Shown: positions 2,124 to 30,989 of the stretch, in pieces
How the letters are laid out: every line of letters begins with the position of its first letter
How positions within the stretch are numbered: the first letter of the stretch is position 1
DNA from: a virus
Direction: 5' to 3' (one strand)
Virus record (IMG/VR): IMGVR_UViG_3300017917_002672
Coordinates: 1-33,118 of that record
Length of the DNA: 33,118 nt
Made by a program: the position numbers and the translations under genes
The notes under the pieces: generated by a model
Seen by the model: only the letters and a program-made list of their open reading frames with translations
Told to the model about the DNA's origin: nothing
The model's database searches: none

Positions 2124-2372
2124 TTATGCCTTACGGCCACTACTTAATTTACTTTCAAGTTTATCAAGTCTTGAATCCAAAACAGAATATAAATTTCGTT
2201 CCGAATCCATCACATTTCTATTCATTCTTTCAAATTCACCCGAATAAATTGTGTGAATTGATTCAATTTCTTTGTTTAGTTTGTTCACCTTAACAAAGGC
2301 TATAACCGCAACTATTGCAACTGCAATAACCACAACTATAGACATTCCTAAAATAAATGATAATATATCCAT
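2124..2372 (-). CDS. Small membrane-anchored coiled-coil protein
   Basis: An 82-residue protein with one N-terminal membrane helix (about residues 5-29, rich in Ile/Val/Ala) followed by a charged helical region of heptad character and ending KLSSGRKA. I chose the ATG at 2372 because AAAGGAG lies about 9 nt upstream (2382-2388); an in-frame ATG at 2396 would place that Shine-Dalgarno site inside the gene. A clear Shine-Dalgarno is unusual in this genome. No family recognised. A type II or spanin-like topology is possible but unproven. Confidence 0.7.
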   Translation of the reverse strand: MDILSFILGMSIVVVIAVAIVAVIAFVKVNKLNKEIESIHTIYSGEFERMNRNVMDSERNLYSVLDSRLDKLESKLSSGRKA

Positions 2373-2392
2373 ATTATGTTTCTCCTTTATTT

Positions 2393-2401: not shown

Positions 2402-2463
2402 GATAGTGTTTGTACCTGGGGCGGGGGTCGAACCCGCACGGACTCTACAGTCCACAAGATTTT

Positions 2464-3154
2464 CATGCCACTATAGTTTTCACTACCTCTTTCGAGTTTG
2501 TGGTCTGGACTATACCTTCACCATATTATTAAAACTTAGGTGTTCCGTGTCTAGTCTCTACACGTTCCCTTTCGGGTTTCGCTCGGTATTCCCATATCAA
2601 AGGGTTCACCGAATTTACGGAATTCTACTTAGATAATTTCTTATCTAGCACTCATATTTTTTGCCCTATAGTTATCAGTAAATGCGTGACAATTAGGACA
2701 TAATAATTTTAAATTTTCTATCCTATTATCAAATTTATTTCCATTAACATGATGAAGTTCTAATGGTATCAGATTATTCATCCATTCAACACCATCACAA
2801 ATCTCACATTTATGTTCTTTAATACCAAGTTTTAATAATTGATTTTTTAAAACATAACTCGAAATAGGTAACCCACTTGAGTATGTTGAATGTTCAACTA
2901 ACTTAGATGAAATGTCTTTTGATTTTGACCATTTTTTTCCTTTGTTCCAAGTCATCCCATGAAAATGAGATGTGTCAATTTCAAAGATTTTAATTCTGGT
3001 TTTAATATTTTCATAATTACCACCAGCCTCCTTCAATCCTAATTTTTTTAATACCTGTCTTATCGAACCGCATTCACGTACCACGGACTCTAAATTTTCT
3101 TTCGTATATTTCATAATAATAAATACTATGAAATGTGGTAAACGAAAAGGATTT
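2464..3154 (-). ncRNA. Group I self-splicing intron in tRNA-Leu(UAA)
   Basis: 691 nt inserted after U34, ending in G (omega-G) at 2464, so both splice-site rules of group I introns hold. The conserved core is readable: P-like AATTCGGTGAA (2605-2615), Q-like AATACCGAGC (2581-2590), R-like GACTAGACAC (about 2547-2556) and S-like AAGGTATAGTCC (2507-2518), the last two forming P7. The insertion point is the one known from cyanobacterial and plastid trnL-UAA introns. An HNH endonuclease gene occupies a peripheral loop upstream of the core, so RNA folding and coding regions are separate. Confidence 0.9.
2641..3114 (-). CDS. Intron-encoded HNH homing endonuclease
   Basis: 157 residues from the ATG at 3114; a longer frame begins inside the tRNA exon and its first codons are tRNA sequence, so it is rejected. 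The C-terminal half carries the HNH nuclease: zinc pairs CEIC (near residue 104) and CPNC, with the core LELHHVNGNKFDNRIENL followed by LLCPNCHAFTDNY. The N-terminal half has a helix-turn-helix-like element (SIRQVLKKLGL), probably for DNA binding. It should cut intronless tRNA-Leu alleles and drive intron spread. The sequence TAGTATTTATTATT just before the ATG resembles the phage promoter element seen elsewhere. Confidence 0.88.
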   Translation of the reverse strand: MKYTKENLESVVRECGSIRQVLKKLGLKEAGGNYENIKTRIKIFEIDTSHFHGMTWNKGKKWSKSKDISSKLVEHSTYSSGLPISSYVLKNQLLKLGIKEHKCEICDGVEWMNNLIPLELHHVNGNKFDNRIENLKLLCPNCHAFTDNYRAKNMSAR

Positions 3155-3202
3155 AAGTCTTGCGTGTCTACCAATTCCACCACCCAGGCAATTTTCCCAA
3201 TA

Positions 3203-4286: not shown

Positions 4287-4356
4287 TGTTTGGTAACAGA
4301 ATCGAACTGTTATTTACTCGATTAAATTTGTTGTTCTACCATTGAACTAACCAAAC
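4287..4356 (-). tRNA. tRNA-like gene with unpaired anticodon stem
   Basis: Acceptor GTTTGGT/ACCAAAC, D-stem GTTC/GAAC and T-arm AACAG/CTGTT with loop TTCGATT are perfect, with discriminator A. The middle (ACAAATTTAATCGAGTAAAT) does not form a standard 5-bp anticodon stem with a 7-nt loop; U33 placement gives UAA or UUA ambiguously. Either a decayed tRNA or an RNA that keeps only the acceptor/T/D body. No isotype assigned. Confidence 0.6.
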
Positions 4357-4652: not shown

Positions 4653-5066
4653 TTATAAACCCCTATAATATTTACTACGAGGTCTACCTTCTTTTTTATT
4701 TGCCCCTTTATAACTGTCAGTTAAACTATGACAATTTGGACAAATTATCTCAAGATTTTCAATTTTATTGTTCATAAAATTTCCATCTTTATGACTTAAC
4801 TCTAATGGAACTTTTCCTGTATGTTTATTTCTTTCCGACCACCCACACGACATACATTTTTCATTACAAGTTTCCATCATATAATCTCTTATCCATTTTG
4901 CCGTTTGAGTTTTACCTCTCATTCCATCGTGATTACCATTTAACCATTCTTGAATTTTAATATCTCGTTTAACTTTCGCAACACAAGTTTGTGAACAAAA
5001 TTTGGTTCTTCTTCTACCAACATTACCACAACAAGGACAAGTTTTTTCTGAATATATTCCCGGCAT
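4653..5066 (-). CDS. Free-standing HNH endonuclease with zinc ribbon
   Basis: 137 residues from the ATG at 5066 (MPGIYSEK); the frame extends upstream but the extension has no support. An N-terminal zinc finger (CPCCGN and FCSQTC) precedes a helical linker, a second zinc pair (CNEKCMSC) and the HNH core LELSHKDGNFMNNKIENL with IICPNCHSLTDSY. The nuclease core closely resembles that of the intron enzyme at 2641-3114. The neighbouring tRNAs are intact, so it is not obviously inside an intron; mobile endonucleases of this kind insert in spacers. No Shine-Dalgarno; GATATTTATTATAA lies upstream. Confidence 0.85.
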   Translation of the reverse strand: MPGIYSEKTCPCCGNVGRRRTKFCSQTCVAKVKRDIKIQEWLNGNHDGMRGKTQTAKWIRDYMMETCNEKCMSCGWSERNKHTGKVPLELSHKDGNFMNNKIENLEIICPNCHSLTDSYKGANKKEGRPRSKYYRGL

Positions 5067-5140
5067 ATCTATTACTTTTATAATAAATATCTTGGTAGAC
5101 ACCAAAAGTATCTAAAACAGGTATATTCAACCTATTTTTT

Positions 5141-8618: not shown

Positions 8619-8688
8619 TGGACACGTTGGGAATCGAACCCATTTACTCTGATTGCAAATCAGGTAGTCTGCCATTGACATCCGGCCC
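8619..8688 (-). tRNA. tRNA-Ala(UGC)
   Basis: First tRNA of the array in the direction of transcription. Anticodon arm CTGA/TCAG with loop TTTGCAA (UGC). Acceptor GGGCCGG/CGTGTCC has two mismatches but keeps G3-U70, the alanine identity pair, and A73. Confidence 0.82.
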
Positions 8689-9784: not shown

Positions 9785-11539
9785 ATGAAAAAAATATTAT
9801 CTATACTATTATTATTATATGTTACAAACATATATGGTCAAAATCCAATAAAATTTAAATTAAATGATAATCCAATTTATTTGGATAATAATGGACAACC
9901 TATTAATAGAGGTAGTGAATTTAATGTTATTGTATACGGTGACGGAAATGGTAATACAACAACTAGACAATTATTGTTTGATTTTGAATTTGATAATACA
10001 AACTTTGAAATAGTATCAATTAATCATACTGGTACTGGTGGTAATGGTGGAATTTTACCATATGGTTCGAATGTACAATTAACTTGGAATAGTTATATGG
10101 GATATACATATGTACAACCAACAAATACATCGGGTACCAACGCAACCAATGGTACTTACATGTTCAATAACTGTAACTACATTTATCAATCAGGCGGACC
10201 AAATACAATTATTCGTGCAACATTAACATGGGCATCAACAAATGGAATGCCATATACCGGATATTCAGATTTATTGGTTGTGAGAATGAGATTGAAACAA
10301 ACATCAACTGCAACCATGTTCAATCCAATAAAATTAGACTTTGTTGCGGGATGGAATAATAATGGTATTCAGGATATTACTTATATGGATGAACCAAAAA
10401 AAGTTGATGTTATAATGAATCAAAACGCAGGTAAATATGTAAATGTATTTGTTGACGTGAATCAAAATTTAACAAATCTTACAAACCTTAAAGTTGTATT
10501 TGTTGATAGTTTAACAAATATAGGTCATTTATTTCCGGTGTTATCTGATGGAACAGTTGATGTTAATCAGACACAATTACAACAAAATAATGTTTATTAT
10601 GTTCAGGTATTATATGACATGGATAAATCTTATGATGTTTATAACAATGCAATTACAATATCTGATTTCAGTACAACTCAAAATGAATTCAATACCATGG
10701 GTTTAGACGGTTCAAATGGAGCTGTGTTACAAACAGGTCAATCATTATATGCTGCAGATATTAATAGAAATAAAAAAATAGATGGTGGTGATTTACCTAA
10801 ACTTTTAGCACAAGTTGCTGGTGTAGACGTATTATACACTTTACCTCCCGGATATACAGTAGGTAGTGGTGGATATATGAGTATGCCAACTTGGGATCTC
10901 CTATCATGGAATAATATAACAACTTCAAATTGGTCGACGATAACATATCCTAGAACTTATTTTAAAACAGGTGTAATGGGAGATGTTAAAACATTAAATT
11001 TAAAATATTTGTTATGGGGTGATGCAAATAGATCTCACTCATCCCAAGTAATTGATCAAAATGGATTAGTTAAAAATTTCTCACTTAAATCAACAGGGTT
11101 TATTAATTCACCTTATAACATAAATTCGATCGATGTTACGTTACCAAATTTAACAGTAGTTTCAAATACTATTGAATTACCGGTAACAGTTAATACAAAT
11201 GTATCAAATGTGGGTGGATTACAATTTCAATTTGAGTATGATACAACAAAAATTAAATTTGAAGAACTTTTAACCGATTTACCAAATACTTGGTATGTAT
11301 TTGCTAATTCAAAAAGTGGTAAAGTTAAGTTTGGTGCTTTAGATCAAAACAATAACAAACCTTTAACGGGTATTGTCATCCCATTTAAATTGAAATTCAC
11401 AACTATAGGTGAAGGAGTTGATATTTTAACATCCATAAAAGTTTCTCCAATTATGGATGCAAGTGATAATAAAGGAATACAATTAGGTATTAATTTAAAT
11501 AATAAACAAATAAAATTAACAGGATATAATAATTTTTAA
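9785..11539 (+). CDS. Secreted protein with cohesin-like domains and a dockerin-like segment
   Basis: 584 residues with a signal peptide (MKKILSILLLLYVTNIYG, cleavage near 19). Residues 20-215 look like a cohesin-type beta-sandwich (LLFDFEFDNTNFEIVSI; later LLVVRMRLK). Around residue 320-345, AADINRNKKIDGGDLPKLLA matches the DxNxDxxI..xD Ca-binding loop and helix of a dockerin. Residues 455-580 form a second cohesin-like domain (GGLQFQFEYDTTKIKFEELL). No sorting signal at the C-terminus, so it is likely periplasmic or secreted. Cohesin and dockerin domains bind each other in cellulosomes; here they may mediate self-assembly. The assignment is from sequence pattern and needs profile support. 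Confidence 0.7.
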   Translation: MKKILSILLLLYVTNIYGQNPIKFKLNDNPIYLDNNGQPINRGSEFNVIVYGDGNGNTTTRQLLFDFEFDNTNFEIVSINHTGTGGNGGILPYGSNVQLTWNSYMGYTYVQPTNTSGTNATNGTYMFNNCNYIYQSGGPNTIIRATLTWASTNGMPYTGYSDLLVVRMRLKQTSTATMFNPIKLDFVAGWNNNGIQDITYMDEPKKVDVIMNQNAGKYVNVFVDVNQNLTNLTNLKVVFVDSLTNIGHLFPVLSDGTVDVNQTQLQQNNVYYVQVLYDMDKSYDVYNNAITISDFSTTQNEFNTMGLDGSNGAVLQTGQSLYAADINRNKKIDGGDLPKLLAQVAGVDVLYTLPPGYTVGSGGYMSMPTWDLLSWNNITTSNWSTITYPRTYFKTGVMGDVKTLNLKYLLWGDANRSHSSQVIDQNGLVKNFSLKSTGFINSPYNINSIDVTLPNLTVVSNTIELPVTVNTNVSNVGGLQFQFEYDTTKIKFEELLTDLPNTWYVFANSKSGKVKFGALDQNNNKPLTGIVIPFKLKFTTIGEGVDILTSIKVSPIMDASDNKGIQLGINLNNKQIKLTGYNNF

Positions 11540-16854: not shown

Positions 16855-18882
16855 TCAACTATTTACAATATTTTTTTTATTGATGATTAAACTACCATTT
16901 TTGTATTTAATTGTTGCTTGTTCATTTTCTAAAATGTTACCTTTTAATATCTCTTCACTTAAAAAATCTTCACAAAGATTTTGGATTATCCTTTTAATTG
17001 GTCTCGCACCATATTCTTCTTGTAGATTCATTTCAAAAATTCTATTGATTACTGTTTTATCGAAAGTAATTTTATAATTTTTTTCTTTGAGTCTATTATT
17101 TAATTTAATAATCTCGATATTGATGATTTTTTTCAATGTATCTTCATTCAAAGAATTAAATAAAATAATATCATCTATACGATTTAAAAACTCAGGATTG
17201 AATTGTTGTTTTAATGCTTTTTGAATCATAGATTTTCTAACATCATATTTTTGTTGTTCACTGGATGATGTTGTAAATCCTACCCCTCCACCGAAATCAG
17301 AAACTTTTTTAGCTCCAACATTTGATGTTAAGATTACAATCGTATTGGTGAAATTTACTTTTCTACCGAATGAATCTGTTAGATGACCTTCATCTAAAAT
17401 TTGAAGTAAAATATTGAACACATCTTTATGTGCCTTCTCTATTTCATCAAATAAAATGACAGAGAATGGGTTATTTTTAACTTTTTCGGTCAATTGACCT
17501 CCTTCGTCATGTCCAACATATCCGGGAGGAGCTCCAATTAACTTTGATACGTTGTGTTTCTCCATGTATTCACTCATATCAACACGAATAATTTTATCAG
17601 GGTCACCAAATAATAAATCCGCTATCGATTTTGCTAAATATGTCTTTCCTACTCCAGTGGATCCTAAAAAGATAAACGAACCAATTGGTTTATTTACATC
17701 TTTAATACCAACTCTATTACGTCTAATTGATTTGGATATAGTTGCAATTGCTTCGTCTTGACCAATAATTTTACTTGAAAGTAAATCTTCCATTTTTAAA
17801 AGTTTCTCAACTTCTTTTGAGTCTAACCTAGTTATTGGTACACCGGTCATTTGTGTGATAATATTATACACATCATCATGTGTTATCGGTATTTTATTAT
17901 TTTTCTGTTTTTCAATCCACTTTAATTTTTCTTCTTCAAGTTTGGATAATATTTTTTTCTCATCGTCTCTCAATTTTGCTGCAAGTTCATAGTTTTGATT
18001 ATGTACTACTTGAAGTTTCTTTTCTTTTATTTGATCGTATTCTTTTTTCAACAATTCAATTGATTCCGGTACCCTACTACTTACTCTTTTTTCAGAACCT
18101 AATTCATCCAAAACGTCTATTGCTTTATCGGGAAATTGTCTATCGGTAATATATCTATCAGATAATTTTACTATTAGTTCAATTACACCATCTTCATATT
18201 TTACTTTATGATAATTTTCGTAAGAATCTTTTAAATTCTTTAATATTTCAATTGTTTCATTTGATGTCGGTTCTTTTAATATAATTTTTTGAAAACGTCT
18301 TACAAGTGCAGCATCTTTTTCTATATGTTTTTTAAATTCATCAAATGTTGTGGCACCTATACATTGAATTTCTCCCCGAGCCAAAGCCGGTTTTAGAATG
18401 TTTGCAGCATCCATCGCACCACTAGCGTTTCCCGCACCAACCATGGTATGTAATTCATCAATAAACACAATAACGTTTGGTTCTGATTGTAATTCAACTA
18501 AAATGGCCTTTATCCTTTCTTCAAACTGACCACGGTATTTTGTTCCTGCAACAAGTGATGTTAAATCCAAAGACACTATTCTTTTATCCAAAAGATTTGA
18601 GGGACAATCCCCTTTAACAATCATTTTTGCCAATTTTTCAACAAGAGCAGATTTACCGACACCGGCATCTCCAACAATTACTACATTATTTTTCTTTTTA
18701 CGAGAAAGAATTTGTGCAATTCTTTTCACTTCGTCATCTCTACCAACAATTGGATCAATTTTTCCTTCTTCCGCTAATTTTATCAGATCTCTTGAAAAAT
18801 TATCTAATATTGGTGTATTCGACCCTTTTTTTATTTTTTTAGGGTTTGTTGTTGGTCCATCTTCAAAAAAGTCTACTGCCAT
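16855..18882 (-). CDS. clpC-like: ClpC-like AAA+ unfoldase lacking the N-domain
   Basis: 675 residues, shorter than bacterial ClpC (about 810-850) because the Clp-N adaptor domain is absent; the protein begins just before the first AAA+ module ([24 protein letters not shown]). D1: Walker A GDAGVGKS (71-78), Walker [10 protein letters not shown] (137-145). A short UVR-like middle domain ([15 protein letters not shown], about 297-311). D2: Walker A GSTGVGKT (407-414), Walker B VILFDE (475-480). VGF at 534-536 occupies the ClpP-docking loop of ClpC, so it could feed the host ClpP; no ClpP is seen here. Divergent from Hsp20. Role in phage proteostasis or host protein degradation is inferred. Confidence 0.92.
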
Positions 18883-19035: not shown

Positions 19036-19425
19036 ATGATAACATTATTTAAAGACCCATTTTTTACAACCTTAGATAAGGTTTTGGATGATTCTTATTT
19101 CAATAGAATGTCTGTTTTAGGTTCGAATAAACAAACGAACATAACTAAAAATGAAAATGAATACTTAATTCAAATTGCGGTTCCCGGTTTAACTAAAAAC
19201 GACATTAAAATTACATTAAATGAGAATGTCATAAATATTTCACATGAATCTCAAGAAACAGATGAAAAAACATTTTCATTTACCAATTCATTTAAAAAAT
19301 CATACACTTTACCTGAAGATATAGATGAAAAAAATATCAAGGGTAGTGTTGAAAACGGTGTACTTAATATTATTTTACCTAAAAATAAGAAAAAACCTAT
19401 TGAACGTTTTATATCCATTAACTAA
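19036..19425 (+). CDS. Hsp20 small heat-shock protein
   Basis: 129 residues, normal for bacterial and phage Hsp20. Alpha-crystallin domain from about residue 34 (ITKNENEYLIQIAVPGLTKN) through EDIDEKNIKGSVENGVLNIILPK, with the conserved A-x-x-x-G-V-L-type motif as ENGVLNIILPK. The C-terminal tail PIERFISI provides the I/V-x-I/V anchoring motif in modified form. Phage Hsp20s are common near virion genes of T4-like marine phages and are thought to assist folding. Followed by a strong terminator. Confidence 0.93.
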   Translation: MITLFKDPFFTTLDKVLDDSYFNRMSVLGSNKQTNITKNENEYLIQIAVPGLTKNDIKITLNENVINISHESQETDEKTFSFTNSFKKSYTLPEDIDEKNIKGSVENGVLNIILPKNKKKPIERFISIN

Positions 19426-30308: not shown

Positions 30309-30989
30309 ATGAAGATATTAGGTCCTAACGAAACTTACATATATTGTCTATTACATAACAATGAAGTAAAGTACGTTGGTAAATCTGATAATCCTAATCA
30401 AAGATTTAAAGAACACATAAAAAAATCTAAATACAAAAAAACATATAAAGATAACTAGATAAACAGTTTAATTGAGTCCTCTCAAAAACCTGAATTATTA
30501 ATATTGGATAAAGTACCATTTAATAATTTTGGATTTTGGGAGGATTTTTATATTGATTTATTTAAGTCATTCGGTTTTAAATTAACTAATATGGTACCTG
30601 GAGGTGGAGGAGGTAATTTTGGTGATGAAGTTAATAAAAAAATATCAGAAAAATTAAAAGGTAGAATTATTAATGACATATGGAGAGATAACATGAGAAA
30701 AGGATGTATTGGTAGAAAACACACAAAAGAGACCAAAGAAAAATTTAAACAACAAAGATTAGGTATCGGAAATTCAATGTTTGGTGTTAAAAGAAACAGA
30801 AAATGGGATGAAAATAAAAGAAAAAAGATAATTCAATTAGATTTAAATGATAATTATTTAAACGAATGGGAATCGATACAAGATGCTGTAATTAGAACAA
30901 ACACAAATAGAACATCCATAAACTATGTGTTAAAAAATAAAAGAAATTCAGCAGGTGGATATAAATGGAAGTATTGTGATATTTATTGA
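30309..30989 (+). pseudogene. GIY-YIG homing endonuclease interrupted by an amber codon
   Basis: From the ATG at 30309 the frame reads ETYIYCLLHNNEVKYVGKSD (the GIY-YIG motif as YIYC..YVG), NPNQRFKEHIKKS, then KDN-TAG-INSLIESS at codon 50 (30456-30458), where related enzymes have Trp (TGG to TAG is one base). The frame continues intact for 176 codons: FGFWEDFYIDLFKSFG (catalytic Glu), MVPGGGGGNFG, and a DNA-binding tail with repeated NUMOD-like segments (HTKETKEKFKQ, IIQLDLNDNYLNEWESIQDA). Either a nonsense mutant or read-through; the uninterrupted remainder suggests a recent change. It ends 3 nt before the protease gene. Confidence 0.85.

Follow-up and report, generated by a model that had tools for sequence, protein, structure and literature searches.

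Can a tRNA gene of a phage harbour a group I intron that still splices and moves? According to a 2014 review, all phage introns observed until then lay in protein genes, despite the many tRNA genes that phages carry (Hausner et al. 2014, PMC3984707), and a search of the open-access literature (subscription papers and preprints stood outside it) turned up no later description of a phage tRNA gene with a group I intron. The question is raised by a 33-kb metagenomic phage fragment (33,118 nt, hereafter the window), in which a tRNA-Leu(UAA) gene is split by an insertion with an HNH gene (Table 1). Our preferred reading, to which we assign a probability of about 0.85, is a mobile group I intron that sits after the wobble base of the phage tRNA-Leu(UAA), would leave the transcript by splicing and would spread by HNH homing. 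This type of mechanism, group I splicing combined with HNH homing, is known; the gene class is unreported for phages in the open-access literature. A Bacteroidota host is plausible for the window phage, the closest named phages by portal protein being a Microcystis phage (38%) and Flavobacterium phages (37%).

Table 1. Features of the split tRNA-Leu(UAA) locus (positions in the window)
Feature	Position	Strand	Description	Evidence
5' exon, tRNA-Leu(UAA)	3155..3189	-	3' end at U34, GCAAGACTT	ARAGORN split tRNA, spliced fold
3' exon, tRNA-Leu(UAA)	2413..2463	-	from A35 (AAAATC) to A73; no encoded CCA	
Group I intron	2464..3154	-	691 nt, terminal G at 2464	Rfam, ARAGORN, covariance model R1
TATTTAT	3119..3125	-	4 nt before HNH start codon; candidate late promoter or start signal	
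HNH homing-endonuclease ORF	2641..3114	-	157 aa, in P1 loop	PHROG, Pfam, invariant residues, selection
Internal guide GAGTGC	2648..2653	-	pairs with exon ACUU, U34.G wobble; inside last ORF codons	
P2 hairpin TAGATAA-GAAA-TTATCTA	2630..2647	-	ORF stop codon in its 5' strand	
Catalytic core, P3 to 3' splice site	2464..2623	-		R1, pair counts, RNAalifold
P3	2622-2617/2548-2543	-		
P4	2613-2608/2587-2582	-		
P5	2604-2602/2593-2591	-		
P6a	2576-2567	-		
P7	2556-2552/2512-2508	-	GACTA/TAGTC	
P8	2542-2539/2522-2519	-		
P9	2503-2500/2471-2468	-		
Small membrane-like ORF downstream	2124..2381	-	synteny anchor: tRNA-Leu, ORF, tRNA-Arg	

A split tRNA gene with a complete group I core

Read on the minus strand, the locus runs from GCCTGGGTGGTGGAATTGGTAGACACGCAAGACTT through the intron into AAAATCTTGTGGACTGTAGAGTCCGTGCGGGTTCGACCCCCGCCCCAGGTA. 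With introns allowed, ARAGORN returns a tRNA-Leu(taa) with a 691-nt intron (gactt/intron/aaaat) inserted at position 35-36, and the joined exons (3189-3155 and 2463-2413) make up a complete tRNA-Leu(taa) in which all arms are paired. Both the rejoining of the exons into a leucine tRNA and the insertion at U34/A35, which an earlier note had read from this DNA by itself, are thereby upheld. In its default mode, with introns disallowed, an ARAGORN scan of the window did not report the split gene. The window carries at least 24 tRNA genes between 124 and 8688, the split tRNA-Leu counted in; two of them (4287-4356 and 8619-8688) were found by Rfam and missed by ARAGORN.

Scoring with Rfam Intron_gpI, a check that the earlier note had proposed, gave 59 bits, against a cut-off of 50, for positions 2671-2483 in the 911-base slice scanned (E 2.8e-14). 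The default Rfam scan of the whole window did not find the intron, apparently because of its speed filters, and the same model also stayed silent on several clear cores (L186, L187, L190 and L026); its silence was therefore not taken as evidence. To avoid circularity, a covariance model of the core from P3 to the 3' end (R1) was built from 13 ORF-less phage and bacterial introns, all of them from outside the window's own clade. R1 has a sole match in the 33 kb, at 2623-2464 (154 bits, E 1.9e-41), and none in three intron-free relatives or in L189, a locus of Dulem virus 42. RNAalifold predicts 44 pairs for the 13 introns, 21 of which show double compensatory changes. Across 83 phage introns the cells of P3, P4, P7, P8 and P9 are paired at about 98-100% and those of P5 at 86%, with two-sided changes in P3, P4, P5, P8 and P9.

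In the window intron every core helix is intact and P7 is fully conserved, its two strands being the P7-type motifs quoted in the earlier note. The core from P3 to P9 includes the P7 guanosine pocket, the exon ACTT faces the GAGT guide at 2653-2650 with the 5' exon U in a U.G pair, and the preceding U and terminal G named before are U34 and the G at 2464. At the level of sequence comparison, a group I intron after U34 of a phage tRNA-Leu(UAA) is confirmed, and the observation is real and well supported. Other candidates were rejected: a chance resemblance on the E-value (2e-41), and a group II or an archaeal bulge-helix-bulge intron on the complete group I core.

Splicing would proceed by the usual route: the precursor tRNA would be transcribed, P1 would form between exon ACUU and guide GAGU, a guanosine held in P7 would attack after U34, and the exons would join to a working tRNA-Leu. 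A very unlikely alternative is that an HNH gene has inserted in the tRNA-Leu gene beside a decayed ribozyme, so that the tRNA is dead and no splicing occurs. Such a state is suggested by the ORF that fills the P1 loop of the window intron, and possibly has a counterpart in Dulem virus 42 (L189, PP511876.1), where an HNH of the window's family splits tRNA-Leu(UAA) at U34 (1392-2009) and leaves no room for a ribozyme core. The core helices of the window, however, are all intact, with a conserved P7, a score of 154 bits and covarying pairs, and the exon stems are still perfectly paired; a decayed ribozyme was rejected on these intact helices. As to the Dulem virus 42 locus itself, the ORF ends in KNICA and its TAA stop coincides with the junction to the 3' exon, which looks like a deletion of everything from the guide through the core. 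Either this tRNA is dead, as is probable, or the locus represents an intermediate stage in which an HEG is invading.

An HNH gene that runs into the ribozyme

The ORF begins 40 nt past the intron start and matches PHROG 10822 (E 5.6e-45), which bears out the intron-borne HNH endonuclease gene claimed before. A match to Pfam HNH_3 (E 3.3e-4) is below Pfam's own cut-off, and the motif with its zinc-binding CxxC pairs is present (CEIC..LELHHVNG..N..LLCPNCH), the HNH residues being invariant among relatives. The gene is under purifying selection, with dN/dS of 0.03-0.17 where synonymous sites are unsaturated. The predicted fold is of moderate confidence (pLDDT 74); a PDB sequence search gave no match, and a fold search with the model gave no significant match, the enzymes that it resembles weakly being HNH proteins of the McrA type.

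The ORF closes with AAT ATG AGT GCT AGA TAA (N M S A R stop), and these codons also contain the guide together with the P2 5' strand. In ORF-less introns some 10 nt separate the guide from the 5' splice site (TTTGAGTGC; AATTTGAGTGC). Similar endings recur: six further introns (L004-L006, L009-L011) have an ORF that spans the entire P2 hairpin (e.g. ..NMSARGETL stop), two from Bacteroidota genomes (L145, L150) have a TGA stop within the guide (TTTGAGTGCC), and the P6-loop versions L026 and L187 have a TAG stop within the core word GTGTAGAGACT. Contact or overlap between the 3' end of an HNH gene and the ribozyme is thus a recurrent feature; the earlier note did not mention that the ORF of the window overlaps the guide. 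Cases in which an intron ORF extends into core sequence, under tight control, are noted in the 2014 review (PMC3984707), so that the overlap in the window has a precedent in kind. Ribosomes that finish the ORF would block the formation of P1 and P2 on the same RNA molecule, and since the ORF runs into guide and P2, translation and splicing are expected to be mutually exclusive for each molecule. An ORF inside the P1 loop could also hinder the choice of the 5' splice site.

The TATTTAT element stands at the same 4-nt spacing before the starts of terL (25172) and portal (26998). The window has three copies of TATTTATNNNNATG, one each ahead of HNH, terminase and portal, where 0.47 occurrences are expected and none of 100 shuffles reaches three. 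All 74 relatives tested have TATTTAT no farther than 40 nt ahead of the portal gene, 65 of them at 4-5 nt, the gene-body background being 73 of 3943 stretches; it also precedes 10 of the 11 P1-loop intron ORFs. We infer a late-gene signal used throughout the lineage, so that the HNH would probably be made from its own element inside the intron, like the late genes; the element may be a promoter, or it may serve to start translation. Late promoters occur inside T4 introns, and the TATTTAT signal of the window lineage is unlike the T4 signal TATAAATA.

Other genes of the window deserve mention. A second PHROG 10822 HNH protein (4653-5069) lies outside introns and ends 5 nt from tRNA-Ser(TGA); it is a candidate free-standing homing gene of the tRNA cluster. 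A NUMOD3-containing protein among the structural genes (30504-30989) is likely a relict of a homing endonuclease. A predicted secreted protein (9785-11539), which matches cohesin weakly and contains a stretch resembling a dockerin (DINRNKKIDGGDL), is unusual in a phage, and a ClpB-like gene (16855-18882) is found together with an Hsp20 gene (19036-19425).

Introns of this type in phages and bacteria

A pattern scan of viral contigs gave at least 120 matches, some of which lacked a surrounding tRNA and were discarded as chance; the 5' exon positions were taken from ARAGORN coordinates. Together with HNH matches, the scan yields at least 83 distinct viral trnL(UAA) introns, most of them 190-260 nt long and ORF-less; that the form is common in phages had escaped the earlier note. 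About 17 introns among the matches listed, 640-770 nt long, bear an ORF. The uniform U34/A35 site is partly there by construction, because the search pattern fixes the 3' junction. The cultured Agrobacterium phage Atu_ph07, a jumbo phage, has an unannotated 278-nt trnL intron (tRNA-Leu at about 112890-113249 of MF403008.1), and trnL(UAA) introns are also found in two huge phages of 735 and 595 kb.

Two further phage loci differ in the gene that is split. Microcoleus phage My-WqHQDG (L191, 1313-1598) has a ribozyme of the same type in a tRNA-Arg(CCT) gene; this group I intron measures 213 nt, and the depositor's annotation labels all 286 nt of the gene as tRNA-Arg. In Pelagibacter phage HTVC120P (L188, 1494-1651) the same ribozyme type (R1, 125 bits) stands between two annotated capsid-gene fragments, an intron of trnL type in a protein gene.

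A scan of bacterial genomes with a pattern that required TATAGTCC, and thus addressed introns other than the cyanobacterial ones, found 50 loci, nearly all of them trnL introns. The genomes belong to Alpha- and Betaproteobacteria, Acidobacteriota and Planctomycetota, with a small number from Bacteroidota. An HNH is present in 3 of the 48 bacterial trnL introns analysed. The HNH family of the window also occurs in another loop of trnL introns, in other phages and in one Acidobacteriota genome. A Pyrinomonadaceae MAG (L162, c[125,887]) carries an HNH gene of this family in P6 that is read in the opposite direction from its trnL intron.

tRNA-like pieces are likewise seen in introns. A 290-nt trnL intron (L038, c[5732,6108]) has a tRNA-like sequence in its P6 loop (..GTGGGTGAGATAG...CAGTTCGATCCTGGCACTCACA), possibly a tRNA gene nested in the intron of another tRNA gene, and the P9 region of L012 holds a T-arm-like piece.

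Turnover of the endonuclease

In a tree of the cores (133 rows, 145 columns, many unresolved forks) the window groups with 15 phage introns (86/96), ten with an ORF and five without; bacterial introns stand mainly elsewhere. ORF-less introns are nested among HEG-bearing ones (98/92), and L055, L092, L106, L064 and L077 are ORF-less inside the mostly HEG-bearing window clade. In the HNH tree, the window and eight other P1-loop HNHs form one group (99/98), family B (L145, L150, L273 and L015; 100/99) stands apart from it, and the HNHs of L044, L079 and L129 are of a third kind. L006 and L065 have near-identical cores with HNHs on separate branches, and an HEG must therefore have been replaced. 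The interleaving of HEG-bearing and ORF-less cores, together with distant HNHs on near-identical cores, indicates repeated gain, loss and swap of HEGs.

The earlier note had thought of an independent or ancestral mobile form. That the ORF-less trnL introns of phages, bacteria and perhaps cyanobacteria and plastids descend from an HNH-bearing intron is very unlikely. The five ORF-less introns inside the window clade are compatible with a loss of the HEG, but the HNH genes belong to at least three lineages in at least two loops, amid ORF-less introns, which makes the HNH form recurrent and derived rather than ancestral; furthermore, the near-identical cores of L006 and L065 have HNHs that are far apart, and most phage and bacterial introns are ORF-less. 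In the 145-column core tree the Anabaena reference, the sole cyanobacterial one, is on a very long branch and the Azoarcus reference on a long one.

It is also unlikely, less strongly so, that the HNH is a passenger protein with another function that hitch-hikes in a permissive loop. The second PHROG 10822 protein of the window, outside introns and next to tRNA-Ser, would fit a passenger, as would related proteins in tRNA clusters outside introns (L012, L013, L015). Yet the HNH families A and B each occur in trnL introns of unrelated genomes and in different loops, which suggests that the tRNA-Leu site is what they have in common; one HNH sits in a tRNA-Leu without a ribozyme, and the gene is under purifying selection. 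Our preferred reading remains a homing endonuclease, which would cut or nick the anticodon-stem region of intron-free tRNA-Leu(UAA) genes in co-infecting phages, whereupon repair from the intron-bearing copy would insert the intron.

Empty and occupied sites

If the intron is mobile, closely related phages should differ in whether the site is occupied, and they do. Four relatives (L274-L277) with portal proteins 82-84% identical to that of the window have an uninterrupted tRNA-Leu(UAA). In L277 the gene order tRNA-Leu(TAA), 90-aa ORF, tRNA-Arg(TCT) is that of the window, the small membrane-like ORF being 73% identical over 90 residues, and the site is therefore syntenic and empty. In L273 (portal 84%), by contrast, the tRNA-Leu beside tRNA-Arg(TCT) is split by an intron whose HNH is a different one and lies in the P6 loop. 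For the nearest relatives of intron plus HNH, at 73-83% protein identity, none of the neighbour genes of the window that were tested is present within the loci compared, and the neighbourhood relatives of the window lack the intron; such a difference between the kin of the intron and the kin of its surroundings is the pattern expected of horizontal spread. The mobility proposed in the earlier note finds support at the comparative level in these syntenic empty sites, and the introns appear to be moving between phages.

Implications

Introns in tRNA-Leu(UAA) are common in environmental phages and unannotated in the cultured Atu_ph07. Default ARAGORN and default Rfam both failed at the window intron, and counts of phage tRNA genes will overlook split ones wherever the settings disallow introns. 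The spread of trnL introns has long been regarded as ancient and mostly vertical, and the phage introns offer a candidate for a still-mobile system in which this spread can be tested directly. Tentatively, and with more doubt than confidence, one may go further: phages might rank among the main reservoirs for trnL(UAA) introns that are mobile, in which site-specialised HNHs enter, swap and leave the loops and carry introns between phages and bacteria, while the ORF ends couple translation to splicing; the 'ancient' trnL introns of bacteria may then descend from such elements.

Comparison with known systems

The cyanobacterial and plastid trnL(UAA) intron (e.g. of Anabaena) shares with the window intron the gene, the U34/A35 site, the exon partner in P1, the terminal G and a similar core layout. 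It is described as ORF-less, whereas the window intron carries an HNH, and the phage core differs from it in the sequence of J8/7-P7 and P9. IC3-type bacterial tRNA introns (Azoarcus tRNA-Ile, bacterial trnL) have nearly the same core words AAATTCGGTGAA, GTAGAGACTAGAC and GGTATAGTCC; at the level of such words, the likeness of the window core to the Azoarcus and Anabaena sequences is strong. The tRNA-Leu introns of Alphaproteobacteria, Acidobacteriota and Planctomycetota occupy the same site as the phage intron, and IC3-type bacterial introns are mostly ORF-less, unlike that of the window. The Bacteroidota introns L145 and L150 agree with it in the U34/A35 site, the HNH in the P1 loop and the ORF end within the guide, but their HNHs are members of family B, which forms a clade of its own (100/99).

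The Synechocystis tRNA-fMet intron with I-Ssp6803I is also endonuclease-bearing and also placed in the anticodon region of a tRNA, yet it is bacterial and interrupts a different tRNA, and I-Ssp6803I belongs to an endonuclease family other than the HNH of the window. Finally, introns of the T4 td and SPO1 type are phage group I introns as well, with an endonuclease in a peripheral loop and a late-gene-like start signal; these introns split protein genes, whereas that of the window splits a tRNA gene.
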